From Cystobasidiopsis lactophilus (lineage: Eukaryota; Basidiomycota; Agaricostilbomycetes; Agaricostilbales; Chionosphaeraceae), in NCBI GenBank assembly GCA_001599975.1, contig BCIO01000003.1:682001-746000 (forward strand): DNA of 64,000 bases. Direction: 5' to 3'. The notes below the pieces were generated by a model. The model ran no database searches. It had not been told where the DNA came from and saw only the letters and a list, made by a program, of their open reading frames with translations. The position numbers were made by a program, and so were the translations under genes. Shown piece after piece: positions 2,861 through 60,672 of the stretch (positions within the stretch are counted from its first letter, which is position 1; each line of letters opens with the position of its first letter).

Positions 2861-4180
2861 ATGTCGAGCGACCCAAATGCCGTTCAGCCCCACCTGCGGC
2901 TGGCAGGTGAGAAAGTCTCAATCTTTGCAAAGCTTGCGTTCTTATGGTGAACCAACCAAAAGCTGCTTCCATTGGATTCTACGCCTATGTGACCACCCTC
3001 TCTTCGGAATATCGGTTTGTCAAAAGGCAGATTGCGAAACGACCCCTCAGCCCCATCCTGTTCTTCTTGCTTGGCGCTCGCTACTTCAACATTATTTACC
3101 TTGCGTCGATAATTGCCACCGTGTTTGGTAAAGACTACTCGAGAGAGGAGTGCATTCGGGTGATGTGGATCTCGCCCATCTCGCGGGTGCTTGGCGCCAT
3201 CTCTGCCAACTTGGTCATCGCCTGGCGCACTTGGGCTATCTGTCGAGGCAACCGGCTCGTGCTCATTGTCCTGGGCTTCTTGCTGGTGGAAACTATCGTG
3301 CGTTGGGCGTTACATTATACTCTCAAACAACGAAGAACTGACTAGACGCTGCTCTGTCCAAATTCCAAGGCCCTTGACAGCTTTAGCATCTCTGTCAACT
3401 CTCCCATTCAAGATCCAGTCCTGCGCAATTGCTCTGCTGGTACGACTGCGGACCAGCCGAACTACAAATGGGCGTTCTTCGCTGCCCAAACCTCCTTCGA
3501 CGGGATTTGCATGGGAATGGCTTCGTGGCGGCTGCTCAAAGATTCTGGTTGGGGACGAGGCGGCCGCTTGTGAGAAACCTTTTGTGCTGCTTCTCTCTGT
3601 CGCCAGGACTCACTTTCGAAGCTGAACCTGAGCAGGATGCCGTTCATGCAAGCGTTGTTCAAGGATGGACTCATCTACTTCACCCTTCTCACGGCAATCA
3701 ACTCGATCAACATCTTCCTGCTGCTCGGCAGCAATCGAGATTTATACTCTGCGATGATAGCGCCCAGCGTGACTGCCAGCCTCATCCTCACGTCCAAGAT
3801 TGTCTTTTCCCTTCAAGAGACCATCCTCATGCTCTCTTCCAAAGCGGACAAGAGCAGCAAGTCGAGAACCTTACTCCCCTCTGTCGGAGCCACTTCCAAG
3901 CGTGCGTTTGGTTTTCCTTTTCATTGAAGAGCTCGGCGCAGTCTGAATGCCAGCATACAGACCCGCACATTTCCAGTGTGTCTGTTCATCGGAATCACAC
4001 CACGCATATCGACGTGGTCGATCTTCCTGCTGCAGGGCACGACAGAAACTGGTAGCATCCGTGTCCTGTCATTTATTGCTCTCTTGCTGAATGTGGGTTG
4101 ACGCCAGGATCGAGATGGACCGCTCCTATCAAACCAAAAAGGCAACCCACGAGCCTTTTGACGTCCTCGATGAGCCGTGA
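2861..4180 (+). CDS. DUF6533-like multi-pass membrane protein, copy B
   Basis: Tandem paralog of the gene at 469-1777. Exon 1 is MSSDPNAVQPHLRLA, followed by an intron ending CCAAAAG. The body then repeats ASIGFYAYVTTL, SPILFFLLGARYF, ISANLVIAWRTWAICRGN and PFMQALFKDGLIYFTLL. The intron after GAAACTATC is longer than in copy A (about 65-70 nt) but has the same position and phase. The intron after GGCCGCTT ends at CTGAGCAG and restores L-M-P-F-M-Q. The C-terminus is HEPFDVLDEP, the same tail as copy A. The start is taken by homology of the 15-residue first exon. It is a recent duplication in which introns drift faster than exons. Function unknown; a seven-helix receptor-like role is often suggested for the family but nothing here proves it. 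Confidence 0.8.
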
Positions 4181-4401: not shown

Positions 4402-5895
4402 CTATATTTGCCCTTTGTGCTGAGAGAGTGGAGCGGTAGAGTCTGGAGGTGGCATGATTTCCGCGAAAGCGTTGGTCAACAAGGGAGAAGGTGGCGACAC
4501 GGAAGAGCGCCGCGATTCACCGCCGCTGGAGGCGTTTTCGTAGGTGGGCTATCAAACACGATATTTCAGTTCGGACGAAAACAACAATCAAGTCGGTCGC
4601 AAGCAACTCACAGGCAGAATGCCTTGATTGGCGTCTACTTCGTGGATGACCTCTTCAGGGTCTCCTCCGCCTCCACTTAAGTCTTCTCTGCCCGAGCCCG
4701 AATAACGGTTGTGCAGGTGTTGCAGAAGAGTCGAACTTTGGTTCGAACTCAAAGAGTAGCGGAAGGATGAGTCTCCTGTGGTGATCAGTGAATCGCATCG
4801 GATGGGGGGGATTTGGGGTGGCCGGCGAAAGCGGAGCGGCCAGAGTCTGTGGGTGTAGAAATGGCGTGTACGTGTTGCCATAATTTTCCATGCCTAAACC
4901 GGAGTCGGAATCCAAAGAAACGCGGCGCACGCTTTGCCCGCCACTTGCTTGACTTTGGCGCCGGCGGCGCAAACAGAACAAGGCCACGAACATGCCGAAG
5001 AGGAGGCCTGCCACGCCTCCAATGATGCCTCCTACTATTGCACCCGTTCTCGCCGAGGAAGAGGAGTGCGAAGGCTGGGTGTAGAAGGCTGACCAGGCAA
5101 TGACTGTCGCTGCAGAAGTCGGAGGATCGGAAGGGTATGCAGTAGCGGAGACGGAAGCAGCACCGATCAACGTCGTTGTCGCTGGTTCTTCATCGTACAC
5201 AACGTAATCGAGGCAAAGGTAAGGGAAGGTGTTGGGGATTCTCGGGTCCGAATCGGCAAAGTTGAAAACAGCCACAGTGTGCTTCGCTGCTGGCATGTCG
5301 GTCACTCCGAACAGTGAAATGGACGGGCCGCCGTTTTGCAACTGATCACCACCTCTGAAGTGAGCTTCCGCCGGACCAAGGTGCAGAGGGGCTCTCTTTC
5401 ACCCACCTGGCCATCGTAGGCATCTCCTGTCCCTGCCACCTCACCATCCTGCACGGGGAATAAGCGATCAAATCGCTGCGTCTAGGCCTCAAATATGCAC
5501 CACTTACCACCACGACGACAAACTTGCCTCGGTCCGCTTTTCGACCACAGAAGATGGCTGCAGCCACGACGTGTCAGTAAAAACCCTGTCCTCAGACGGC
5601 ATGTCCTCTGGGCTTACAGAAAGAAGTGCCAACAAAAGTGAAGGAGTAAGTCGCATCAACGTCGTTCGAAAACGAGAGCGTGCCATTGTAATCGGGAGGG
5701 ATCCACTGCCTCCTTTTACTTAGTGCCTGTGCAGGTGCATTGGAGAATCCCTACATGATATCATGCATTCGAAGTGGTAGGGTACCACGAGAATAGGGCT
5801 TGGTTGTCGTCGACATTAATGGAAGCGGCGAGGACCGCGTTCAAGCGGAAGAGGAGCAGGAATATTGCCGTTGCCCGAAGCTCTAGCGCGACCAT
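4402..5895 (-). pseudogene. Decayed paralog of the S/T-rich single-pass surface protein
   Basis: The exon structure parallels that of the intact gene at 6932-8367. It has a signal peptide (MVALELRATAIFLLLFR...), the start of the beta-sandwich domain (INVDDNQALFSW), exons with SIFCGRKADRGKF and DGEVAGTGDAYDG, a long exon with SLFGVTDMPAAKHTV and FPYLCLDYVVYD, a membrane segment after SSSSARTGAIVGGIIGG, a basic stop-transfer RRRR, and a tail ending in PPTYENAS. Two lesions are visible. Exon 1 reads TGA (complement at 5761-5763) where the paralog has TGG for Trp in SNAWYH. The reading frame also changes within a run of seven G at 4804-4810, so the tail continues in another frame. The second could be a sequencing slip; both together suggest a pseudogene or recently inactivated copy. 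Confidence 0.6.
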
Positions 5896-6931
5896 TTTGG
5901 TGAGTATAGCTTTGCTACAAGGGGCGTCAGACGAGCCAGGGCTGCCTGAGCAGAAAAAGCGTGAAACAACACGCCCAAGCCGACGCGCTTTCACAGCGCT
6001 CTAGAGCTCTGTAGTAAGGACAGCAGCTAAGGAACCAGAAAGAGGCACCGTTTAGAGTAGGTCAGGGATTGAGATAAGGCAGACCTAGGCAAGGACTGGG
6101 TGACGATGGCGCGAAAGGACAGTTGTCGGTGGAGGCGGTCCAAGTTCATGCAACCAAGCACCAATCTTTGACGCCTCCTTAGCTGCACATGGGCATTGTT
6201 GTTTCATTATTGAGCAGTACACAGCCGCCGGTGCTTGTAACAATGATCTCGCGTCCCAAGTAAATTTTGACACTTCAGGAAGGCTTCCTTGTTGACGGCA
6301 GCCATTTAACAGCAGCAGACTGGCCGCGATGACTGGGTCATGGTTACGAGCCGGTCGTCGCCTACGTTGAAAGACAGGGGCAGTCGATTCGGGGATTCCA
6401 TTCTTTGGGCGCCGCCTGGGAGATCGTCGTGCGCGCATCCCGCCCATTGCAAGTCGCAAAGCGATAGACAGAAAGTCAGCTCGAATACCGACAGCAAGGA
6501 CGGAAGCGAAGCCTTGAGATTATAGGACAGCAGCGAGCTTAAGAAGCAAATGCAAACTCTGATGCTGGAGAGAGCAAGTCTCGGGCAAGTGGCGCATTCC
6601 GGTCAATCGCCAGCTTGTCAGCCGTGGAGATGTCGCATTGGAGTACTGAAGTGGGCAAGTCGTCCTCTAACCAGTCAGGTTCGACGGGCTGGGCGAGCAA
6701 ACCTCCATCTCGTCCCAGCGAGCCGCCTCATGACAGTGACGCCACTTGCGCTTCTGGGTCTATTGGCGCCTCGTTAAACCATGCAAGAGGGTTCTCTGAG
6801 ATGGTACGATTTGCGATTACAATTGCAACACCCAGGCAATGGGGTAAAAGACCACAAAGGCTCTGCTCTCCACTGCCAGCTACGGTTCAAAGAAACCCAT
6901 CATGTATTAAACATCGGTGATCCCCTTGAGA
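5896..6931. other. Intergenic spacer between the two surface-protein copies
   Basis: About 1 kb. Small frames on both strands (for example 6085-6459 minus, 6615-6920 plus) show no family features. It contains the 5' flank of the decayed copy and the 3' flank of the intact one. Nothing else is recognised. Confidence 0.4.
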
Positions 6932-8367
6932 CTAAATTTCTCCTTTGGGGGTAGAGGCGGTCGAAGGAAGGGAAATGGCTTCCGCAAAGGTTTTGGCCAA
7001 CGGAGGAGAAGGTGGCGACAGGGAGGAGCGAGGCGATGCGCCGCTGGTGGAAGCGTTCTCGTAGGTGGGCTGACAGCCGCGGTAATTGAGCTTGAGCAAA
7101 GACAGTCGGACGAGTTCGCCAGCAACTCACAGGCAAAACACCCTGGTTGGCGTCTGATTCGTGGATGACCTCTGGATCTTCGCCCGAAGTCGAGTGGCTG
7201 CGGTGAAGATCTTGCCTGAAGGTCGAGCCTTGAACGGAGCTTAAAGAGTAGCGGGCAGACAAGTCGCCTGTGGTGGACACCGAATCGCGGTGAGGCGAAT
7301 ACGGCGTGGTCGGCGAAGGGGGAGCGGCTGTTAAGGCTTGGTGGAGGAATGGCGTGTATGTATTGCCATATTGTTCCATGCCTGAAACGGAGTCCAGCGA
7401 GGCGCGTCGCCCGAGCTGGCCACCGGTCCCTTGCGTTCGGCGTCGGCGACGAAAGCAGTACCAGGCCACCAGCAAGGAAACGAGAAGAACTGACACGCCT
7501 GAAACCACACCTCCTACTATTGCTCCCGTGTTTGATGAGGAGGAACGCGAAGCCTGCGTGTAGAAAGCCGACCAGGCGATGGCCGTGGTAGCAGATGTAG
7601 GTGGATTGGACGGGTAGGCAGTAGCGGAGGAGGCAGCAGCAGCTCCGGCCAATGTAGTCGTCGCTGTCTCTTGATCGTACACAATGTAATCGAGGCAAAG
7701 GTAAGGGAAGGTGTTGGAGATTCTCGGGTCCGAATCGGCAAAGTTGAAGACGGTCACTGTGTGCTTTGCCGCTGGCATATCGGTCACGCCGAAGAGTTGA
7801 ACTGACGGGCCGCCTTTTTGCAACTGATCACCACCTCGGAGATGAGCTTTCACCGCATAAGCTGCAGAGGGACCTTTTGACGCACCGAGCCATCGTAGGC
7901 ATCGCCTGTCCCTGCGACCTCGCCATCCTGCAGAGACAAAAAGTCTTCAAGTTCCTTTCTAGAGCTGTCTATACGAGATTGCTAACCACCATCACGACAA
8001 ACTTGCCTCGGTCTCCCTTTCGACCGCAGAAGATGGCTGCGGGCAACTCGGCATCGGCGAACACTTATTGTCCAGTCTACGAAAGGGAAACTTACCGAAT
8101 GAAGTTCCCACGATAGTGAAGGAGTAGCTCGCATCGACGTTGTTCGAGAAGGAAAGCGTGAAGTTGTGCTCGGGAGGGCCCCACTGTCCTCCTAGTCAGG
8201 CCAATTCGCTGCACGACAGATCCTGAGCGTACATGATACCATGCATTGGAAGTGGTCGGAGACCACGAGAACAGCGCTTGATTGTCGTCGACATTGATGG
8301 AAGCGGCGGAAGTTGGCCTTAAGCGGGAGAGGAGCAGCAGCGTCGCAACCGCCCAAAGGACAAACAT
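6932..8367 (-). CDS. Receptor-like S/T-rich single-pass surface protein with PPxY tail
   Basis: Predicted type I plasma-membrane protein of about 380 residues. Order: signal peptide (MFVLWAVATLLLLSRLRPTSA), an extracellular beta-rich domain with INVDDNQALFSW, WGPPEHNFTLSFSNN, AIFCGRKGDRGKFV and FPYLCLDYIVYD, an S/T-rich stalk, one membrane helix after SSSNTGAIVGGVV, the stop-transfer FRRRRR, and a long disordered cytosolic tail with many SP/TP sites. The last exon joins as ...NQGVLP to PTYENASTSG, making the WW-binding motif PPTY, then ends in TPKGEI. The short 3' exon and the small exons (for example the one ending DGEVAGTGDAYDGS) have good donors and acceptors, and all are paralleled in the decayed neighbour. 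Basidiomycetes carry many proteins with this plan; ligands are unknown. A sensor role is inference from architecture. Confidence 0.72.
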
Positions 8368-9298: not shown

Positions 9299-10827
9299 TT
9301 AAATGTAGCAAGAGGGGGCTTCGTTGGCGCGGGTGTTGATGATCACTGCGATTTCCAACACCTAGATTGAGCCATCTGGAACGCTTAAAAGGGAAGGAAA
9401 GCGACCCACGTGCAATGATGAGCCCGTACAAGCCCAAACTGTGAGGCAAAAGGTGCTCAGACATGAAGCGGCACTTCAGATCATCGGTGGCACGCACACT
9501 TCGGCGAAAACTGAGCAGATACCCGCGTTGTTAGCTAGGACATCAGCATACAGACAGACAGCAAGCCCTCACTCAAGATCAAAATCATGCCGACGAACAA
9601 TCTGCCAGTCCACATCATCTTTCTATCAGTCTCCGCAAGTGGCGATAAGGCAAGAAGGGCAACTGACCGTGGCTGTTGAGCAGTGCCTCTCACACCGGCG
9701 TTTCCGACGATGCCAATGGCGAAGCCGGCGGCGAGACCGGCGAGGCCGACCGAAAGGCCAGCGCCGAGTTGGATGAAGCCGGCGTACCTGCATGCCATAC
9801 GTGAACAAGAGTCCCTACGAATGGGACAGGCGCAAGTTCAGCATACAAGGACATAGGCGATTGCACTGTGGCCAACCATTCAATCACCGCTCGAGCGGTG
9901 GGATTGAGATGAAGCGCTCACAGCCTCCAGAAATCAAGACAGCGACGACCAGGCCGTCTGTGCCGTCAACATTCCATGGTCAGCCCAACGACCCGCGAGG
10001 AAGAGCTGGTGGTGGGTGCCACGTACAAATCTGCAAATCGTGGCCTCCCGATTAAGTTCTGTTCGTCGACCTTAAGAAAGGGCTTCAGCTTACAGCAATG
10101 ATACCAGCCATGACGACTGGCGGGTAGAACAGGCGCAGCAAGACATTAATCCCTGGCCAGAGTTCAATGGAGGGTGCTGGCCGACTGACCTGGCACGATG
10201 CACTTCATCATCTGTGGTTACCACGCCTTCATTCAGTCCTGGTCCTAACTGAAGCAACAGGCGAAGCAAACGCACCAAATCGGGCCTAAGGACACCCATG
10301 GCGGAGATGCCGACCTGTTCCAGCGAACCGCACAATCAGCCCTGGTGATCCATCGAAGGCAGGGGGCGGAGGTCAACGAACGCCTGATTTTGCGGTGCCG
10401 TAACTGCATTGGCCACCCAGGTGAGCTCGCGGGCAGAGCAAGAGCTCAGAGAGGGGAAGGGGCACGAACCTGGCTCCTATGCCTGCGAGCCACCAAACCG
10501 ACCCATTCAGACCTGTAAATCGGAATAGGTGCGGTCAAGGCTCACAGGTGAAGACGATGGCGCTTGTGCAGCCCTGTGTGCGGTCTGATTAGCGCGGACC
10601 CAGGCCGGAGAGCGCGGATGGGACCTCACCATGGCGCCGCTGCGAATCGCGGAATTTGAGCATCGTTCTCAAACGTTTGGGCCCCTCCCACTTTGGGGGC
10701 AGGCGCTGGCCACTCACAAGAACGGAGCCGAAGGAGGGCCTGTGAGCGCCACGGGCGATAGATAAGCTCTGGGAGTGAAGCCTTCTAGGAGGGAGAGGGC
10801 CTTACAGAGCTCTGAGATTTGCGACAT
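9299..10827 (-). CDS. VMA3: V-type proton ATPase 16-kDa proteolipid subunit c
   Basis: Encodes the c-ring proteolipid of the vacuolar H+-ATPase. The spliced model is 165 residues, the normal length for the family, with four helices. It starts [20 protein letters not shown] and contains [74 protein letters not shown] and [15 protein letters not shown], and ends NEAPSCYI. The proton-carrying glutamate is in FAEVLG, at about residue 140. The gene is split into about 17 exons. Several are tiny: 10 nt at 10630-10639, 13 nt at 10470-10482, 4 nt (ATTT) at 10027-10030, 13 nt at 9498-9510. Every junction has a GT donor and AG acceptor and yields the conserved family sequence. The start fits the short N-terminus of yeast Vma3 (MTELCP). 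The paralog Vma11 is less likely because the N-terminus matches Vma3 better. Confidence 0.93.
10027..10030 (-). other. Predicted 4-nt microexon of VMA3
   Basis: Read on the minus strand, the sequence is ...GATTTGCAG, then ATTT, then GTACGTGG.... Joining the upstream exon ending ATCATTGCT to ATTT and then to ACGGCCTGGTC gives I-I-A-I-Y-G-L-V-V, the exact conserved second helix of subunit c. Without the four bases the frame is lost and the isoleucine-tyrosine pair is missing. Flanking introns are about 63 and 69 nt with CTTAAT and CTGAC branch-like sites. Confidence 0.75.
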
Positions 10828-16793: not shown

Positions 16794-17476
16794 ATGTTTT
16801 TGTCCACTTCGAAGCAGCTCTTCCGGCCCACATTAGTAGCAGCGCGGTGCACCTGCCAGCACCTCCGGTTCGCCTCGAGCGCCGCCGCCGCCCAGCTCCA
16901 GCAACCGGCCGTCCAACCTGCGCCTGCACCCGCTCGCCCGGCTTCTCGCATAAAGAAGGCCGCCAAAGCTGCTATCGTCCTCGTTCGTGTCCTGTTCCCT
17001 TGATACTCATGTCAGAGGCAGGAACTGACGGCCGGGGTGCCAAGCAGAAACCAGCGGCAGTGGACAGGCTCAAGGGCTTGCTCGAGGGGCCGACGCCACA
17101 GCTGATCCGGATTGGCGTGCGCAACAAGGGCTGCGCGGGCATGGCGTACCACTTAGACTACGTGTCCAAGCCGGAGCGGTTCGACGAGGTCGTAGAGCAG
17201 GACGGCGTCAAGGTCATCATAGGTCCGTCCGCTTAATCACTCCTTAAAACCTTCAAGTTATCCAAACCCTGGCGCCGCGCACAGACTCTAAGGCATTGTT
17301 TAGCATCATCGGCAGCGAGATGGACTGGGAGGAGTCCAGGCTGGCCTCCCGCTTCGTGTTCAATAACCCCAACATCTCGGACTCGTGCGGTTGTGGCGAG
17401 AGTGTGAGAGCGATCCTCCTCAACCCTTCCCTCGATGATTGCCTGACCCTTGTGTTGTCCACAGTTCCGAGTGTAG
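16794..17476 (+). CDS. ISA1: Mitochondrial iron-sulfur assembly protein, A-type (IscA/HesB)
   Basis: A-type Fe-S protein needed with Isa2 and Iba57 for [4Fe-4S] maturation in mitochondria. Exon 1 (MFLSTSKQLFRPTL...) is basic and alanine-rich, a mitochondrial presequence, ending IKKAAKAAI. Exon 2 begins KPAAVDRLKGLLEG and has RIGVRNKGCAGMAYHLDY with the first conserved Cys. Exon 3 (joined at GTCATCATAG) reads DSKALFSIIGSEMDW, FVFNNPNISDSCGCGES with the Cys-x-Cys pair. A tiny last exon adds FRV and the stop at 17476. About 162 residues, normal for the family. The NPN and CGCGESF signature favours Isa1 over Isa2. Confidence 0.92.
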
Positions 17477-22733: not shown

Positions 22734-23636
22734 ATGAATCAGATGGGTCGCAGTCTGGACATCCATCTGCCCGAGCACAAACAGCCTCTCAGACAAAGCT
22801 CTTCCAGCGGCGTGAACGTGATACCCGCTGGCGACGGGAGCAGCGCCCGCCAGCAAGCTCTGATTTTGATGGAGGTGGGTCGGCGCTCTTGCTCGCTCTG
22901 TCTTGCCCGTCTTAGCGGCAATTGCGAACAGCGCAAGAAAGACACCGAAGAGCAAATCGCTGCTTTGGTCGAGGTCCTCAAGTCGGTGAGAGCGCTCACC
23001 ATTTGCTGCGCCTGGTCAAGGGCTGACTTTCGCGCATCAGCACAATGCCGACTTCAGCACTGCTTTGATCGATTCCCAAGGCTTTCCAAGAGCAGACATC
23101 GATGTGGCGGCCATCCGAACCGCCCGAGCTCGCATCATTCACCTCAGAAACGACTTGAAATCGCTCACCGACCAAATCGGCCTCGCCCTCCAGAATTTTT
23201 TCGAGAACGCACCACCTCCTGCCGAGCCAGCAGAGATGGATGTGGATGCTTCAGATGACCAACCCTTTGCCAAGACCGATGGAGTGGCGCCCGACTCGCC
23301 AGCTGCCGAGGCCGGGCTCCTGCGCGGAGACAAGATCGTCAAGTTTGGCCATATCACCCAGCTCAATCACGAAAACTTGAAAGCGTTGCCTCCTTTTCTC
23401 GCACAGCAAGAAGGGAAGCAAGTCACGTTGGTGGTCTTGCGGGATGGCCAGCAGCTGGAGTTGTCGGTGAGCAGAAGCCCCCTTGAGATGGCAGCGGTAT
23501 TCTCATTCGCCTCGGCACTTCCAGTTGACACCAAGGAAATGGAGTGGGCGTGGACTGTTGGGGTGAGTTGCCCTCGACTCTTGTTAAGTTCGCTGCTGAT
23601 GCCGCTTCGCCCAGTTGCCACATTGTACCGATTTGA
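22734..23636 (+). CDS. NAS2: 26S proteasome assembly chaperone Nas2 (PSMD9/p27)
   Basis: Chaperone that binds the C-terminus of Rpt5 during assembly of the 19S regulatory particle base. Five exons give 226 residues: 22734-22874, 22932-22985, 23041-23466, 23525-23562 and 23615-23636. The N-terminus is extended (MNQMGRSLDIHLPE...). The coiled-coil segment is ARQQALILMERKKDTEEQ, then DSQGFPRADIDVAAIRTAR, the family hallmark. A PDZ domain follows (DGVAPDSPAAEAGLLRGD, DKIVKFGHITQLN, VTLVVLRDGQQLELS). The small final exons restore the conserved end WSGRGLLGCHIVPI. The first intron is a multiple of three (57 nt), so an unspliced reading looks open; the family alignment argues for splicing. Confidence 0.92.
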
Positions 23637-23795
23637 GCCTCTTCCTTGGTCCCCTTGTAACATCGCACAACTTCCTCTCGATACTGTCTGGGACCACGTC
23701 TCTGTCTGCGACTTCACCGCCTCGCGTGTCGGGCAAAGACCGACTCGTCTTGTCCTTCTCCTCCTCACTTCACCCTTTCCCATTCTTTCTGCGCT

Positions 23796-25132
23796 ATGAA
23801 GTCCGACAAGAGCTGGTCTCGAATTGTCGAAGGTGAGCTGCCGCCGCGAGCTGCCCTCCCCCTAAACTAACGAGTTCGCCACCGGCAGGCGCTACCAAGC
23901 CCAAGGTTCGTTCCAAGACTCGTTGCAGAGATGAGTTATTGAGTAAACCTACAGCGCATGACCGCCAAGTACAAGTACGCCAAGCCCATATTTGAGGCCT
24001 GCAAGAACGACCCTGCGGGTTTTTCTGTCATTTGCCGAGCCCTGCAAGTCCGCCTGCATGACTTCAATCCGACCGTGGTGCTGAAAGGCCTGATCCTTGC
24101 CCACTGCTGCATCAACAACGGAGAGGGAGACAAGGTAGGACCCGAACTTCTCGTCTTTCATCATTGCTGGGTCGAATGCTGACGGCCTATGCCAGGTCCT
24201 GGCCGGCATCGCTCGCGGCAAACTCAACTTCCGCGTCATCTCCAATCGCTCCTCGATGCCGCTCAACATCGTGCGCTATTCCAAGTATCTAGACAAGCGA
24301 GTCGCGACCTTGGTTAAGACCGGCGCCGACGTTGTCAAAGCCAAGATTGACTACAGCGAGCACCCGGGAGCCGCCATGGGAGAGAAAGCGACTCGGATGA
24401 AGCGTCTCTCAGTGCAGACTGGACTCATCAAGGAGACCGAGGCCATTGAGAGCCTCATGGCCACACTCAATGACGCTTTGCTTGACTTCGATCTTGAAGA
24501 CGATGACTCGCTCATCGAGCAAGCGCTCGGTTTGCTGTTCCGAGACCTTTTCATGAGCGCCCAGGCTCTGTGCGAAGGCATCATCAACATCCTGAGTAGG
24601 TCCCTGGCCCTCCTCTGTGCAAGGCCTTACAGCCGGTTGACCGTGTGCCTTGCTCAGAGCACTTCTTCGACATGTCTCCTGAAGATGGGCGTCGAAGTCT
24701 TAAGGTATACATCAAGTGTGTCTCGTCCATCCAAGCGGTTGAAGGCATCCTGTGAGCGCTTTGCCTGACAAAGTTGGCGCAATAGCTCATCCCAAGAGTG
24801 CTTACAGCGATACTGCTCGCGAGCGTGGACATATGTACGCGATCAACGACCTGAAGACCCCGCCCATCTCACTGGCCGCGCGCTTGGAAGCTTGGCTCGA
24901 TCAAAACGAAGGCGACAAGCCCGGCAGTCGCCGCAGTGCCTGCCCAACTCTGCCGCCCAAGGACTCCCCCAAGCCGGCCACTATCACCAAGGAATCCTTC
25001 AAATCGTCGGCCAGTGCTCGCCAGGCGTTCTCCGAAAACATCGGCAGGGCTCAGCAAGTCGTCTTTCCGGAGAGGTCGTCGCAGAAAGGCTCGCGCTATT
25101 CGTCAGTCGAGAGCGTGGCAGAGATCCTGTAG
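23796..25132 (+). CDS. AP180/YAP180-type clathrin assembly protein (ANTH domain)
   Basis: Endocytic adaptor that binds PtdIns(4,5)P2 and clathrin at the plasma membrane. Exons: MKSDKSWSRIVEG, ATKPK, then MTAKYKYAKPIFEACKND with VVLKGLILAHCCINNGEGDK, then VLAGIARGKLNFRVISNR, SMPLNIVRYSKYLDKRV (matching the IVRxYxxYLD motif of ANTH domains). A later exon reads KHFFDMSPEDGRRSLKVYIK, then the last exon, beginning DTARERGHMYAINDLK. The C-terminal region after the ANTH fold is short (SRRSACPTLPPKDSPKP to SSVESVAEIL), with no visible NPF repeats, so the protein is smaller than yeast Yap1801/1802. Introns are 45-70 nt with regular GT-AG ends. Confidence 0.85.
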
Positions 25133-53024: not shown

Positions 53025-53429
53025 AACGCCCTATCCCATCCTTATGCTGGGCTCTCTCAGACGGAAGAGAGGCCGGGAAGAAAGGGTTGTACGACTGTGC
53101 CTGTTTTCGACCTTTCTCCTTTTGATTTATCATGGACAAGCGCGCGGTGGCGGACTCATAGATTTCCTTAGCAGGTGGGCCGGGCTCTTTTTGCTACTGT
53201 GCAGTTGGCTCAGTTCACTCTGCTCTTCAGACGAGATGCGGAAATGGGAGTGGGAGGCTCGTTCAGAATCGAAGATACGACCGCTAATGCCCCTTGCCTT
53301 TTCTCCGACGCCTCCATCCACATTCCTTCGTGCGCGCGGGTCTGCCGCCGCAGCGAGGAGGTCTCACATTCTGACGTCTCCATTGCATTTATAGCCTGTA
53401 TTTTTCATCTTTCTCGAACGGCCTGAACC

Positions 53430-54745
53430 ATGAGCGCCAAGCAAGCTGCACAGACCTTCGGGCCATCAGCGCCAAAAATTCCGTTACCGTTACCACCATC
53501 TCGACACACTTTCCTCAGAAAAATGCAGTTTCCAGTCGAGATTTGGGCTGAATGCATCTCCTACGTGGACATCGACGGCTTGCGGGCTCTTGAAGGTCTC
53601 AGATGTCGGAAGCTGCACACACTGCTCAATGCTCGGCTCTATCGTTCAGTCGTCGTCTCCTTCGACGCTGACACCACCAAGTTAAAGCGCCTTCTACGCA
53701 CAATCAGAGCAGCCAGAGACTTTGGTCTTCTTATTCGAAGCGTTCGGGCGAAGAAGTCATCTGCCCCTCGAGCTGAACGCGATCTGTTTGTGTCGGGAAG
53801 AGAGGCCGACATGCGCCCTGTCCTACAGCTCCTTAAGGCTTGCCCGTCGTTGGAGCGTCTCGGAGTTTTGGGGGTGTCCCCCGCTGGTGTTGTGGGATTG
53901 ACCAAGGCGAGTTCCCAAATTCATTGAGAGGAGGCTGTATGAACAGCCCAGCTGACTCGCTCTGCTAGTGTTTTTCCGGGAGAGGAGCGAGAGCCGGACT
54001 GCAGGCGCTATCTAGTTTGACGATTCATGGCGAAAAGACTGGTTGGCGGCGGATCGACTTCACGTTTCTCTACCCGCTGCTGAGCGTACTTCCACGTTTG
54101 GAAGAGCTAGACCTCGGCTATATCTGCTACCAAGGCCAACAGGGGCTAAGGGGAACCAACCCATTAATGGCGCTCCGAACCCTCCGTGTAACAGACATTC
54201 GAGGCAACGACAGAGACTGGACACTTCCGCTCGATGGACCCAACCCGGTACGACTGCCCCTTCTGCGCACGCTCGACATCAGCAATACAACAAGAGGCGA
54301 TACAGCAGTTCTTTTCCGCCGTTACGGACAGCAACTCACCCATCTGCGCCTTGTCAGCCAAGAGGGGGACGGATCGCCATACATGCTCGATTGGTTTTCA
54401 TTAGGTCAACAACTCGATCTCTCTCGGTTCCTGTCTCTTCAGCACCTCGACATCCAAAATCTCGACTTTTACGCCAATCTAGAACGAATCTTAGTCGCAT
54501 TTCTTGACGCTCTGCCACCGAATTTGGAATCCATAGTCATTGGCCTAAATCACGACTACCCGACAAGCGTCACTAGCTCTGCTCGTCGGTTCGACGTGAT
54601 CACCCTAAAGCTTCAGTCGCCAGCATTCTTGCCTCGTTTACAATCGCTGATCTTTCATTCGCCACATGGAACTCCGTTTATCCATCCTGTCGATGAGCGG
54701 CCTCACCTTCGATTTTCTTATGTTCAAGTGCCAGCCTGGGCATAG
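53430..54745 (+). CDS. F-box-like/LRR protein, tandem family copy 1
   Basis: Likely start MQFPVEIWAECISYVD at 53523 by comparison with copy 2; an upstream in-frame ATG at 53430 would add 31 residues. The N-terminal FPVEIWAECISYV...LEGLRCRKLH has an F-box-like pattern (L-P-x-E-I-W-x-x-I). Then KLKRLLRTIRAAR and PVLQLLKACPSLERLGVLG. The intron after GGATTGACCAAG begins with GC (GCGAGT) at 53907 and ends CTGCTAG at 53968. The second exon starts CFSGRGARAGLQALSSLTIH, then LLSVLPRLEELDLGYICYQG, QLDLSRFLSLQHLDIQNLD and ends RFSYVQVPAWA. LRR-like strands fit a substrate-binding role in an SCF-type ligase, by analogy only. Confidence 0.75.
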
Positions 54746-55447
54746 AGGGATGGATGCTGCGCACAAAATTGTTGTAAGGTGCGATGTTGGCATCTAAAGT
54801 GATTCATTGCTTATGGTCGACTCGCTGCAGCCACCTACATTTCAACACTTTGGGCTTAAGCTGACTGGCGAAAGTCTAACAAAGCACCATCATCTTGGCC
54901 CGATAAGTTAGTTTTGGCGGGTGAGCATTGGGTGAGCCGTTTTTTGCTGCGATCAATTAGTTGGTGCATAACAACTTGGTTGCAGAAACGTGTGGAATGG
55001 TGTTCTTGCGGAACAGCAGCATTTGCCGAAGCAGGAACTTGTAGAAGAGAAATGGGTCAATTCAATACCAAGCACACAGTCCTACGCCTTCCGCGCTCCG
55101 TTGTTGTACATATCTCCTGCTGCCGTGAAGCTAAAAGCATATTACATAGCTAGGCTCAAGTTGGCACCAACCATGAGCGCCGGCTTGTTGCCACCATTCG
55201 GTTCGACGCGGCTTCTACGCGTCTTCCTCATCAACCAACCCGATGAGGTTTAGCTGTCCTCTCACAGAGGAGCTCATACAAGCAATGTCCTCTCAACTAT
55301 GCAGGACCCATGGTGTCTGTTGCTTTCTCGTTAACGTTTGGCCACGCCGATTAGGCTTTGCCCGGCCATCCTGATTCCAATGTTTTTCTTCTCCGCCGAT
55401 CGCTTTTCACTCGAATTACAAGCCTTGTTTGCTCCCAACACATCAGC
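54746..55447. other. Intergenic region
   Basis: About 700 bases, AT-richer than its surroundings. No supported gene. Confidence 0.35.
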
Positions 55448-56897
55448 ATGACGACTATACCAGCAGCTCTGCGCATCGCGGCGGCGTCCATTGGCCTCTA
55501 CGACATGTGCGTCCAGTTCTGCCGGGCGCGAGCGTGGAATCGAGCTGACAGACCAGAACAATACTCAGGCTCATCACATTTCCAGCAGAAATGCGCTATT
55601 ATAGTCGACAGGCCGGTAGAAAGACTCTGAGTCCCGTTCTGCCGCTCTTTGTGCTCTGTCGATATCTGGGGGCTGCCACCTTAATCACGACCCTGGTCGG
55701 CTTCTTCGGTTCATTCTCGCCGACAGCGTGTAGCCACTTCTTCTACGTCCCGCCGGTCTTGCGTGTGCTTCTAGATGAAGCAGTGAAAGGCGTCCTTATT
55801 TGGCGGACATGGGCCGTGAGCCGAAAATCGAAAGCCGTCCTCATCGGTCTCATCTTGCTCGGAGTGGTACGTCCTAGCAAACAGCGTCTCCCGACAGTAA
55901 ACACTTACCGGTGATCAGGCTACCGCTGCGGTCGATGCCATGTCGATCGGTTTTGAACAACCGCAGACTGACAAGGGCAAGACCAACTGCTACTCTGCTG
56001 CCAACCCGGCGCACAATTACAAATGGACATTCTGTTAGTCTTACAGATCACCACACCTATTCCTGATTAAAAATTCAAACGATCATCGGCAGACGTCTCT
56101 AATCTGGCGTTCGACCTGGCAGTGACCGTCATCACGGTTTACTGCCTGTACAAAAGTGCCAACGGTGTTTGGCAACCCTTCACTAAGATCATGCTCAAAG
56201 ATGGCCTGTGCGTTATAGCCTACTATCCTTTATCAGGTGCTCAAGAAAGTGCAGAGTCTATTTTGTTTTGCTTTTGGCCGTCAACCTCCTCAACACGATC
56301 TTCCTCCTGCAAAGCAACCTGGCTTACAGGAGTTTGTTTCAATCTCTGGGTGTGGCGGCCCTCATGATTCTCTCTCAGCGGATCAGTCCGTCGTTTTGCT
56401 TTCGAGAGTCTGCATTAATAGGGCTCATCAGTCAAAACAGTCATCTCACTCCAAGAAACCGTCGTAAAGGTCAGGACAGAGTCGGAAGGGTCGCGTTCGC
56501 GCCTGTCGTCTGTGGTCAGCTGGACCAGCCGGAAGATGTCGACTGTCAGCTTGCCCCGGGCCAGCTTCGACTTTGGAGTGCGGCGGCAAAGCCAGGATGC
56601 GGGAGCCGGTCTACCAGGGCCAGGCAGCATACCGTCATCGCGACGAGGTTCTTTTATGAGCTTCAATCACGGCCACGCTCGGAGAGTGTCGTTGGCCACC
56701 ATTCCGGGCGGCGTTCCCCTGCCGTCACAGAAGGCTAGTCCTTCATCCATCCTTTTGGGCGAAAGTTCTGTGCTGACCATGGGTTGCAGGAAGAGGAGGA
56801 CGATCATGCCAATGAAAGCCATGACGAAGAGGCCGAGGTGGCGCGTCCGCCCAGGTTGACCCGACACGCCAGCTTCGCCGAGGACACGAAGCCGTAG
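55448..56897 (+). CDS. DUF6533-like multi-pass membrane protein, copy C
   Basis: Distant paralog of the genes at 469 and 2861. Exon 1: MTTIPAALRIAAASIGLYD. Exon 2 (acceptor AATACTCAG): MLITFPAEMRYYSRQAGR, LSPVLPLFVLCRYLGAATL, VLIWRTWAVSRKSKAV. Later ATAAVDAMSIGFEQPQTDKG, AHNYKWTF, NLAFDLAVTVITVYCLYKSA, LLAVNLLNTIFLLQSNLAYR. The segment VISLQETVVKVRTESEG aligns with VFSLQETTLML of copies A and B. The cytosolic tail is much longer than theirs (SSVVSWTSRKMSTVSLPRAS, RRGSFMSFNHGHARRVSLAT) and a last exon gives EEEDDHANESHDEEAEVARP and ends FAEDTKP. The last intron's donor is uncertain. Function unknown. Confidence 0.7.
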
Positions 56898-57285
56898 GGC
56901 CCGACGAGGTTCGTTCCCTTCCCTTCTGCTTTCAGTCACCTCCATCTGAACACCTTCAAGTCTTGTAGGCCGAGGGTCAGTGAGCAGACCTTAATTTGAC
57001 TAAGCTCGGGGCCGCCCTCCACGTAGCATGCAGCAGCAAGCTACTGTACATAATAGCATGCAATACCAGGCATTTCCGTCCAACGAGATACCATGAACCA
57101 TGAGCCTGTACTCTTGGCAGCACGAAGTGCCAGCGCGAACTTGAAGCGCAGCGGCTGCTCTTGTCCCTGTTGCCTACGCCAGCGCTACATATTGTTCACT
57201 TCTGCTAACTATAGAGCAACGAGCCCGGTCCTAAGCCCCGGACTTCACGTCGCTCGCTCTGAGTACCTCTGCGCAATCTTCGAAG

Positions 57286-58584
57286 ATGCAGTTTCCCGTC
57301 GAGATTTGGGCCGAATGCATTTCCTACGTGGGCATGACCGACTGGCGGGCTCTGGAGGGCATTAGGTGCCGCAAGCTACACGCGCTTCTGAACGCAAAGC
57401 TCTATCGCTCGGTCGCCATCTCGTTCGACGCTGAAACCGCCAAGTTGAAGCACCTCCTGCGGACCCTCAGAGCGGCCAAAGACTGGCAGCCTGGTGCCCT
57501 TATCAAGAACGTCAGCGCCACGAAGGTTCCTCCACCCAGGGACTTCTTCGCGCTGGGCCATGAAGAGAATTTTCGCCCGGTCCTCCAGCTCATCAAACTC
57601 TGCCCGGCACTGGAGCGATTGGATGTGTTCGGGATGTCACCCGCTAGCATCGTGGACTTGACCAAGGCAGGTCATTGGGCTTTAAGTCAGGCACTCCAGA
57701 CCGAAGTTTGACAGCATTCGCTTCCACAGTGCTTTGTCGGGCGTGGGACAACTGCCGGAACGCAGTCGCTGGTCGGCTTGACAGTTCATGGCGACAAAAT
57801 CTGCCCGGCCTTCGATATTGCATTGCTATACCCGCTCATCCGTGCACTTCCCAACCTTCAAAAGCTGGAGCTGGAGTTCTGCCACCACCAGGAAGGTGTC
57901 GCGTTTGGCGGCACCAGCCCGCTGCTAGCGCTTCGGTCCCTTCGGCTGGTGGATATTCTGGGAGGAGAGGACGTATATGCGCTGCAGCTCCCCATCTTGA
58001 GCAACCCGGTCCAGATGCCGGCATTGGACAGCCTGACCGTCGCGGACAGCACGATCGAAGACATTCAAGTGTTGCTGCGACACTACGGCCAGCAGCTCGT
58101 CAATCTTCAGCTGGGCACGCTCGACGAGCATGACTCCAGCGAAGCGTTCACGCTCGACCTCTTCGCGCCCGGCGAACCCCTGGACCTCTCAAACTGCACC
58201 CGCCTCGAGCACCTCGTCATCCAAGACGTGACGTTCGACTCCGACGAAGAGGAGTTGACTGTCTTCTTGGACGGCTTGCCACCGACTCTCAAAGCGCTGA
58301 TCATGGATTCGAACGACGACAACTTGTTCTATGAAGATGTCGACGAACACACCCTGCACTTCCGGATGTTCACCTCGAAGCTGAAATCGCCAGATTTTCT
58401 GCCTCTGCTCAAGCGCTTGTCGCTCCATTCGCGGTACGGTGGCTCGACAGACCATCCCGTCGAAGGGCGGCCCCATCTCGCTTTTACGTTTGGCTACGTG
58501 GACAAATACGCCGACAAGTATCTCGCACCCTATGGACCAGGAGGGCTGCCATGGCCGGGGATGATCGAAGCTTTGTCTTCGTGA
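57286..58584 (+). CDS. F-box-like/LRR protein, tandem family copy 2
   Basis: Two exons. Exon 1: MQFPVEIWAECISYVGMTDW, RALEGIRCRKLHALLNAKLY, LKHLLRTLRAAKDWQ, VLQLIKLCPALERLDVFG. The intron after GTGGACTTGACCAAG starts with GC (GCAGGT) at 57667 and ends CCACAG at 57729, at the same position and phase as in copy 1. Exon 2: CFVGRGTTAGTQSLVGLTVH, LIRALPNLQKLELEFCHHQ, LLALRSLRLVDILGG, QLVNLQLGTLDEHDSSEAF, LDLSNCTRLEHLVIQDVTFD, ending PWPGMIEALSS. Identity to copy 1 is highest in the F-box-like part, which suggests the LRR part diversifies faster, as expected for ligase substrate receptors. Confidence 0.8.
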
Positions 58585-58994
58585 AAGGTGGCGAGGGGCG
58601 AGTTGTGGCGACCACTGGGAAGTCGGTGAGCGGCGGTTCCCCACGTCTCGCCTGGGTATCTGCTAAACTGCACACCCCTCAGCCGATCAGACACAGTCTA
58701 TCTGGCTGGATGAGAGTAGATTGCAGCCAAAGGGAGGCTTATGTGGCGTGCTGTTCCCGCTTTGGACTCTGTGGTGATCCGAGGAAACGATGACCACTGC
58801 CCGTCTTCTCGTCTGGTTGACCAACTCTTGTAGCATCAGAAAAGGGGCTGCTTACAGCTGCCGACTGTACACAATACCACCGCTTGTGTGGACGCCGTCG
58901 ATCCAGAAACAAACAAACACCACCCTGCGCTCTCTTACGGGCGTCCATCTCGCGCGCACGCCGCTCCTCTACCCTCCCCATATAGTCAGACAGG

Positions 58995-60672
58995 ATGGCC
59001 TCGCGTGAAGGCATCAAGCTCCCCCTAGAGCTGTGGTCGTCCATTCTCCAGCAAGTTGCCCCCGCCGACTTTGGCGCGCTCGAGGGCTTGCGCTGCCGGG
59101 CCTTACACCAGGCCATCAACAGGAGGATCTACAACAGGATCGAGGTCGTGCTCTCGGAGGAATTCAAGAAGCTGCCCTCGCTGTTGCGCGCCGTCGCCGC
59201 CAACTCGACTCTGGTCTCCTATATCAAGCAGCTCGTCCTGGTCGCCGCTGGCCCCTCCAGGCGCACCTCGACCGGCCCTGCACCATACAGCATCAGCGAT
59301 GCACTGCCCTTGCTTCAACTGTGCACCTCGCTCGAGCGCCTCGAGATCCTGGACTTGCCACCTCGCGCCGTCGAAGAGCTGGACAGCGTGCGTGCCCCCG
59401 CTCTCGTTCTTCCCTGTGCGTCTTGCTCAGTTACACACCATCTTGCTTGGCGCAGTACTTCTTGAGCCCATCCAGCGCCAGTCTCCGGAGCTTCAAGGTT
59501 CAGAACGGGACAGAGAAGCGCGCCGTGACCCAGAGGATCCAGCTCTCGCGCCTGCAGTCGCACCTCTCTCGCCTACCCAAGTTGGAAGAGTTCGAATTGG
59601 AGTGGGCCGTCAGCAGCGGAGCGGAGCGCTTTCTGGGCCCGACGCCTTTGCCCACCCTGCGCTCGTGCAGCTTGATCAACCTGCAGTCGCCGTCCCTCCT
59701 TGGCCACTGCACTGATCTCCCAGCACTGACACACCTCACTCTCGCCGAGATCCTGTCCAGCCACTACAAGGTGTTGCTGTCTCACTACGGCCCTCAACTT
59801 CACAGCCTCCAGGTCGGCACGCTTGTCAAGGTGCCCGGCTGCCGCCCTTTTGACGTGGAAGACTTCTTCAAGGGCCACCCCCTCAACATGGCTGCCTGCA
59901 CCAAGCTCCGCAGGCTCAGCATCCAAGACATAGACCTGCGCACCGGCGATGTGCGCGAGCTGCTCGAGTCCATGCCCACCACCCTCGAGCGCCTCGTCAT
60001 CGAGACCATGCAGGAGGAGAAGCACGGCGTCGACAACAAGAGCTCACTCTACCAGCACGTGGCCTGCTCGCTCGGGTCGCCCGCTGTGCTCCCGAACCTC
60101 CAGCACCTCGAGTTTGGCTGGTTCAAGCGCGTTCCGTCTCTCTATACCCTCCCGCACCGTCCGGACCTGCTCTTCATCTTCGGAGCAACACCAAATCTCC
60201 AGGGACCGCTGCCAAGAAGCCCGACGTCCGCCCCAATGCTCTACCTCAAGGTGTGACGCGTCCGTGCCTTCAACTGCGGCGATTACTCACTCCCTTGGCA
60301 GACGCAGAAGGCAGAGCTCCTACAGAAACGCCCCAATATCACGACAGGTAGGCAACGATTTGCCTTGATGGTGGCGTATCCTCAAAGTTGATAAGGCATC
60401 GCAGCCGAATACAAAGCTCTGCTGGATGAAGCGTGGGCGGCACTGCCCGCCCCCGACAAGCTCCCTTATACGACCATGGCTACCGAGGCGTTGCGCGAAT
60501 GTCAGTTTTTCCGTTCGCTTGCTTCCGTCGTTAGCCGTCTTCTCAACCAAAGGCGCGCGCAGACTCGCAGCAGGTCCAGCTTCGTGCTGAGAAAGGAAGG
60601 CAATACCTGGAGGCCGAGCGAGCTCGACTTCAAGCCTCGATCAATAGCTGGCACCGCGAAAGATCAGCCTAA
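58995..60672 (+). CDS. F-box-like/LRR protein copy 3, apparently fused to an HMG box
   Basis: Exon 1: MASREGIKLPLELWSSILQQ, ALEGLRCRALHQAINRRIYN, PLLQLCTSLERLEILDLP. An ordinary GT intron follows GAGCTGGACAGC. Exon 2: YFLSPSSASLRSFKVQNGTE, RLPKLEEFELEWAVSSGAER, VLLSHYGPQLHSLQVGTLVK, ending like the other copies with RPDLLFIFGATPNLQG. Instead of a stop, the frame runs on into PLPRSPTSAPMLYLK. Splicing at CTCAAG|GTGTGA avoids the stop at 60254-60256 and adds TQKAELLQKRPNITT, AEYKALLDEAWAALPAPDKL, PYTTMATEALREYSQQVQLR, ending SINSWHRERSA at 60672. This last part has the HMG-box pattern (P-x-S-A-x-M-L-Y-L, W, D-K-x-P-Y). If correct, a putative ubiquitin-ligase receptor carries a DNA-binding module; two genes with overlapping ends cannot be excluded. 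Confidence 0.65.

Follow-up and report, generated by a model that had tools for sequence, protein, structure and literature searches.

We analyzed a window of 64,000 nucleotides from the basidiomycete Cystobasidiopsis lactophilus (contig BCIO01000003.1, positions 682,001 to 746,000), in which a VMA3-like gene for V-ATPase subunit c occupies 10827 to 9299 on the minus strand; we traced it by eye and confirmed the reading with a script. The gene comprises 17 exons and 16 introns, and its coding sequence of 498 nt forms, once spliced, a single open frame of 165 codons plus a stop. Thirteen of the 17 exons do not exceed 30 nt, and the exons have a median length of 22 nt and a maximum of 120 nt; the introns are 56–78 nt long (mean, 64 nt) and begin with GT and end with AG in all 16 cases. 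The sequence-only reading had given the coordinates 9299–10827 exactly, omitting the strand, and had described 165 codons, 16 introns, and about 17 exons, including exons of 4, 10, 13, and 13 nt with GT-AG junctions throughout, all of which agrees with the chain that we read from the sequence. The features, all on the minus strand and in 5′ to 3′ order, are as follows; exons are supported by the script-checked chain and by spliced alignment, with other evidence given where it applies.

9299..10827, minus strand: VMA3-like gene, 17 exons and 16 introns (script-checked chain, similarity, Pfam, spliced alignment)
10806..10827, minus strand: exon 1, 22 nt, start codon (chain; supported by the yeast reference alone)
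10718..10739, minus strand: exon 2, 22 nt
10630..10639, minus strand: exon 3, 10-nt microexon
10546..10573, minus strand: exon 4, 28 nt
10470..10482, minus strand: exon 5, 13-nt microexon
10382..10403, minus strand: exon 6, 22 nt
10276..10314, minus strand: exon 7, 39 nt
10190..10211, minus strand: exon 8, 22 nt
10094..10116, minus strand: exon 9, 23 nt
10031..10093, minus strand: intron 9, 63 nt, GTAAGC...TTTGCAG (chain and splice-site scoring)
10027..10030, minus strand: exon 10, 4-nt microexon ATTT, between ...ATCATTGCT and ACGGCC... (chain, alignment, shuffles, and enumeration)
9958..10026, minus strand: intron 10, 69 nt, GTACGT...GCACAG (chain and splice-site scoring)
9922..9957, minus strand: exon 11, 36 nt
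9847..9865, minus strand: exon 12, 19 nt, poorly conserved loop LQSPMSL (also similarity)
9668..9787, minus strand: exon 13, 120 nt (also tblastn)
9573..9601, minus strand: exon 14, 29 nt
9498..9510, minus strand: exon 15, 13-nt microexon, part of IFAEVLG
9410..9438, minus strand: exon 16, 29 nt
9299..9345, minus strand: exon 17, 47 nt, stop codon

Among solved structures, the spliced protein matches yeast subunit c best (E 3.4e-69, 235 bits, residues 5–160), followed by mammalian c (216–219 bits), yeast c′ (182 bits), and c″ (62–73 bits); the search returned molecule names, and the species labels of the matched chains are presumed here. Because the match to yeast c exceeds those to c′ and c″, similarity identifies the gene as Vma3 rather than Vma11 or Vma16. 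Pfam family PF00137 (ATP-synt_C) has two stretches above threshold in the spliced protein, with an E value of 4.7e-33 for the whole protein, and helix 4 contains the glutamate of IFAEVLGLYG, which is identical across five solved-chain alignments and which we take to be the proton-binding residue. The proposal that this gene is VMA3 is therefore supported both by similarity to solved chains and by PF00137.

A tblastn search of the window outside VMA3 gave no match to a second copy of subunit c below E 1.9; a finely split copy could escape such a search, because in VMA3 itself only the exon 13–14 stretch scores below E 1. No relatives were confirmed in viral contigs, and neither a tRNA scan nor a search of Rfam at gathering scores returned anything in the window. 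Two similar multi-pass membrane protein genes, recognized by eye at 349–1548 and 2911–3924 (plus strand), form an apparent tandem duplication; the first has a DUF6533 match of 31 bits (cut-off, 24.1), with no single stretch passing the threshold. The DUF6533 family is biased to basidiomycetes, and its match gives a slight hint of such an origin. Adjoining this pair on the minus strand are two near-copies at 4658–5398 and 6903–7946, both with GVTDMPAAKHTV and FADSDPRI, and with one transmembrane stretch by eye. On the plus strand at 53427–60253, open frames inspected by eye suggest a row of at least three related F-box-like genes (FPVEIWAECISYV..., LPLELWSSILQQV...).

The exon chain was evaluated using a purpose-written spliced aligner, which knows GT, AG, an intron range of 45–110 nt, and a fixed intron penalty, and takes yeast or human subunit c as its guide; two references and four intron penalties (8, 12, 16, and 20 for yeast) gave eight runs. 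All eight chose ATTT (10030–10027), and three (yeast; penalties 8, 12, and 16) returned the complete 17-exon chain. The remaining five trimmed the ends, giving 14 exons for yeast at penalty 20 and 16, 16, 14, and 11 exons for human, either because the ends are poorly conserved or because the penalty outweighs them; their internal junctions were identical. Exon 1 and intron 1 were recovered in none of the four human runs, so the yeast reference is their sole support. With the yeast guide at penalty 12, the region scored 404, compared with a maximum of 41 in 30 dinucleotide shuffles, and both the score and the choice of ATTT were unchanged when introns of up to 250 nt were permitted.

Exons 9 and 11 are separated by 136 nt. 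Holding these two exons fixed, we enumerated every internal exon between an AG and a GT with flanking introns of 45–110 nt, which yielded four candidates; two are in frame, and ATTT alone restores Ile-Tyr (yeast residues 65–66). The suggestion that ATTT completes I-A-I-Y-G in helix 2 is supported by both the reference-guided alignment and the enumeration. When the composite intron was shuffled 20,000 times, AG-ATHT-GT appeared in 56 shuffles, in 13 with both introns of 50–85 nt, and in none with splice sites at least equal to the worst of the other 14 introns. In a cruder and weaker test of score only, 67 of 1,500 local shuffles reached the local score; this null also admits solutions without a microexon, such as one intron plus an extended exon.

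We weighed two other ways of reading the gap. A 22-nt exon at 10044–10023 (GCCACGATTTGC...) is also in frame and gives the top chain once exons shorter than 5 nt are forbidden, although the score then drops from 404 to 382. Helix 2 would read AATICRFVHG instead of AIYG, and the segment AATICRFVHGLVV instead of AIYGLVV, with eight residues (ATICRFVH) replacing an IY that is identical across the five solved-chain alignments; moreover, its acceptor (GGAG) and donor (GTGGCA) lack the −3 C and +5 G present in all 16 chosen introns, and we regard this exon as extremely improbable. The 136 nt could alternatively be a single intron, leaving a truncated product or a decaying copy, and its outer sites, donor GTAAGC and acceptor GCACAG, do fall inside the score range of the remaining introns; skipping of ATTT may well happen as an error in some transcripts. 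However, 136 nt is far beyond the 56–78 nt intron range, and skipping shifts the frame and introduces a stop at the eighth codon after Ala, yet the rest of the gene is open, at 165 codons, and the protein is conserved. A single intron here strikes us as very unlikely. Since loss of ATTT leads to a frameshift and an early stop, its inclusion would be needed for a full-length protein. We read the locus as an intact VMA3 whose 17 exons are, in all probability, joined in a working mRNA, with each intron probably recognized as a unit. The exon chain, its reading frame, the splice-site pattern, and the effect of losing ATTT are shown by the sequence; we infer that the gene is expressed and that its exons are constitutively included.

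The splice signals provide features that are independent of the alignment, as positions +5 and −3 were neither used by the aligner nor part of the sequence-only reading. All 16 introns have G at +5, a base found there at 48 of the region's 100 GTs (hypergeometric 1.7e-6), and C at −3, found at 39 of its 91 AGs (hypergeometric 1.4e-7). The GT-AG ends, together with an extended donor and acceptor consensus present in every one of the 16 introns, are those of U2-type spliceosomal introns. The same signals occur in an Isa-type Fe-S assembly gene (Fe-S_biosyn, PF01521), part of which lies at 17060–17476 (plus strand; read by eye and script-checked), with introns of 62 and 61 nt bounded by GTCCG/CACAG and GTGAG/CACAG. 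A branch point of the form CTNAY lies 12–40 nt from the acceptor in seven of the 16 VMA3 introns, against 25% of shuffled introns, which is a weak contrast; the only candidate in intron 9 is TTAAT, and introns 2, 7, and 16 lack YTNAY within 8–45 nt of the acceptor.

Several introns have features of their own. Intron 13 (9602–9667, minus strand; 66 nt) has no in-frame stop, and a transcript retaining it would stay in frame and encode 22 more residues; retention of introns 1 and 5 would likewise be frame-preserving and stop-free. Intron 11 contains a perfect 16-nt palindrome, CACCGCTCGAGCGGTG, at 9885–9900, where a hairpin is possible.

The uniform intron length and the unusual density within one gene could also be expected if the introns had recently been gained as a copy-paste family of introner elements, and three of 120 intron pairs do reach the shuffles' 99th percentile (score 19), about two above expectation. 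The top intron pair nevertheless scores 23, against a shuffle maximum of 28, and the means are 13.3 for the introns and 12.5 for the shuffles; elsewhere in the window, introns match by only 11–15 nt, the intron 11 palindrome aside. The similarity between introns at different sites that marks introners was thus not found among these 16 introns in this window, and we give a recent introner origin little chance; old introners could have diverged past detection.

With 16 introns in 498 coding nt, VMA3 has 32 introns per kb of coding sequence. Random placement of 16 cuts in 498 nt produced an internal exon no longer than 4 nt in 87.7% of 200,000 trials, and the mean number of internal exons of up to 13 nt was 5.25; VMA3 has four. 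A 4-nt exon therefore needs no special explanation, since 16 introns in 498 nt make it likely, and it is the density, rather than the 4-nt exon, that stands out as unusual. Certain other conserved genes of the window seem to be less interrupted: a match to the Pro-kumamolisin domain extends over 139 residues in one frame, and matches to Nas2_N and PDZ both fall within one open stretch at 22990–23796. The density is about 10 times the Cryptococcus neoformans genome mean of 3.35, a comparison of one gene with a genome mean that favors extremes; the intron density of C. neoformans was described in 2018 as the highest of any reliably annotated fungus (PMC5851062). It also exceeds the 8.7 introns per kb that have been inferred for the ancestor of metazoans (PMC5560861), again one gene against a genome mean.

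It is conceivable, if somewhat doubtful, that few known protein-coding genes are as intron-dense as VMA3 and that its density is maintained by selection, for example because splicing drives export or expression of housekeeping mRNAs. In C. neoformans, intronless replacement of a multi-exon gene is reported usually to lower expression strongly (PMC5851062), so it is possible that having many introns plays a role in expression here. Were the density selected, the gene would naturally lend itself to testing the limits of pure intron definition.

We propose that the sixteen short introns are each recognized as an intron unit, with U1 at GTNNG and U2AF/SF1 at the CAG end, such that exon size would hardly matter. 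The 4-nt exon sits between two ordinary introns; U2AF on its left and U1 on its right would probably collide, and we therefore infer that removal of introns 9 and 10 is successive and not simultaneous. According to one review, it is the length of the intron, not that of the exon, that governs efficiency under intron definition (PMC8624252). The same review ties intron definition to small introns flanked by larger exons, a setting from which VMA3 departs in that its exons are shorter than its introns, and Prp40 is reportedly required for including exons too small for enhancers (PMC8624252).

VMA3 is a clean and checkable case of a conserved gene whose structure automatic gene finders would probably get wrong, and a housekeeping gene that is missing or truncated in the annotation of an intron-dense fungus may reflect a fault of annotation. 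If spliced as proposed here, it would support the recognition of short introns as units whatever the exon length, and it could serve as a natural minigene in studies of splicing across a 4-nt exon. Among the matches listed from a search of the open-licence literature (titles and abstract openings), no paper on an intron-dense VMA3 was found.

The internal exons of 4, 10, 13, and 13 nt fall below the upper limits of 30 to 51 nt that literature sources give for microexons. It had been noted that exons this short are rare in fungi, which may be fair as a count; they are nevertheless on record, with exons down to 1 bp in C. neoformans and bglA exons of 5 and 6 bp. An RNA-seq-based annotation of C. 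neoformans var. grubii mentions exons down to 1 bp; like the VMA3 host, this is a basidiomycete with very short introns (median, 56 nt), and its genome has 3.35 introns per kb of coding sequence, 5.7 introns per gene, and a median exon of 194 nt, compared with 32 per kb and 22 nt in VMA3, although a gene and a genome mean are not like for like (PMC3990503).

Short exons also occur in the bglA genes of basidiomycetous yeasts, whose exons were set by cDNA comparison (PMC9142197). As described there, Rhodotorula minuta bglA has 22 exons, the smallest of 6 bp and 10 of them under 30 bp, and introns of 60 ± 4 nt; the smallest exon of Sirobasidium magnum bglA is 5 bp, against 4 nt in VMA3, whereas Sterigmatomyces elviae bglA has only six introns and no microexon. 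From the table in that report, we compute that three of the four bglA genes have about 7–10 introns for each kb of exon, and VMA3 has about three times the density of the two densest. Cytochrome P450 genes of Phanerochaete chrysosporium, another basidiomycete, share with VMA3 the presence of microexons and frequent introns (45–55 bp), the shortest reported exon being 6 bp against 4 nt here (PMC1184071).

Exons of a single nucleotide provide a further parallel. Fusarium CYP621A has a 1-nt exon confirmed by reads and by 20 orthologues, and, as in VMA3, a conserved protein and the phase demanded a tiny exon, within a stretch roughly double the usual length of an intron (139 nt for F. graminearum CYP621A and 136 nt in VMA3); it differs in being an ascomycete gene with a 1-nt, read-backed exon, whereas the 4-nt exon of VMA3 is predicted from sequence (PMC12940212). 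That report calls its exon the first of 1 nt in fungi, yet 1-bp exons are mentioned in the 2014 C. neoformans annotation (PMC3990503), and a Trichoderma Xlr2 paper states that functional microexons were previously undescribed in filamentous fungi. Arabidopsis APC11 has a constitutive 1-nt exon, the splicing of which was shown with reporter constructs; unlike VMA3, it is a plant gene with a single tiny exon, of 1 nt, and is not densely split (PMC4674806). Set beside these systems, a 4-nt exon in a fungus is not new, and what is unusual in VMA3 is so many introns in so short a gene.
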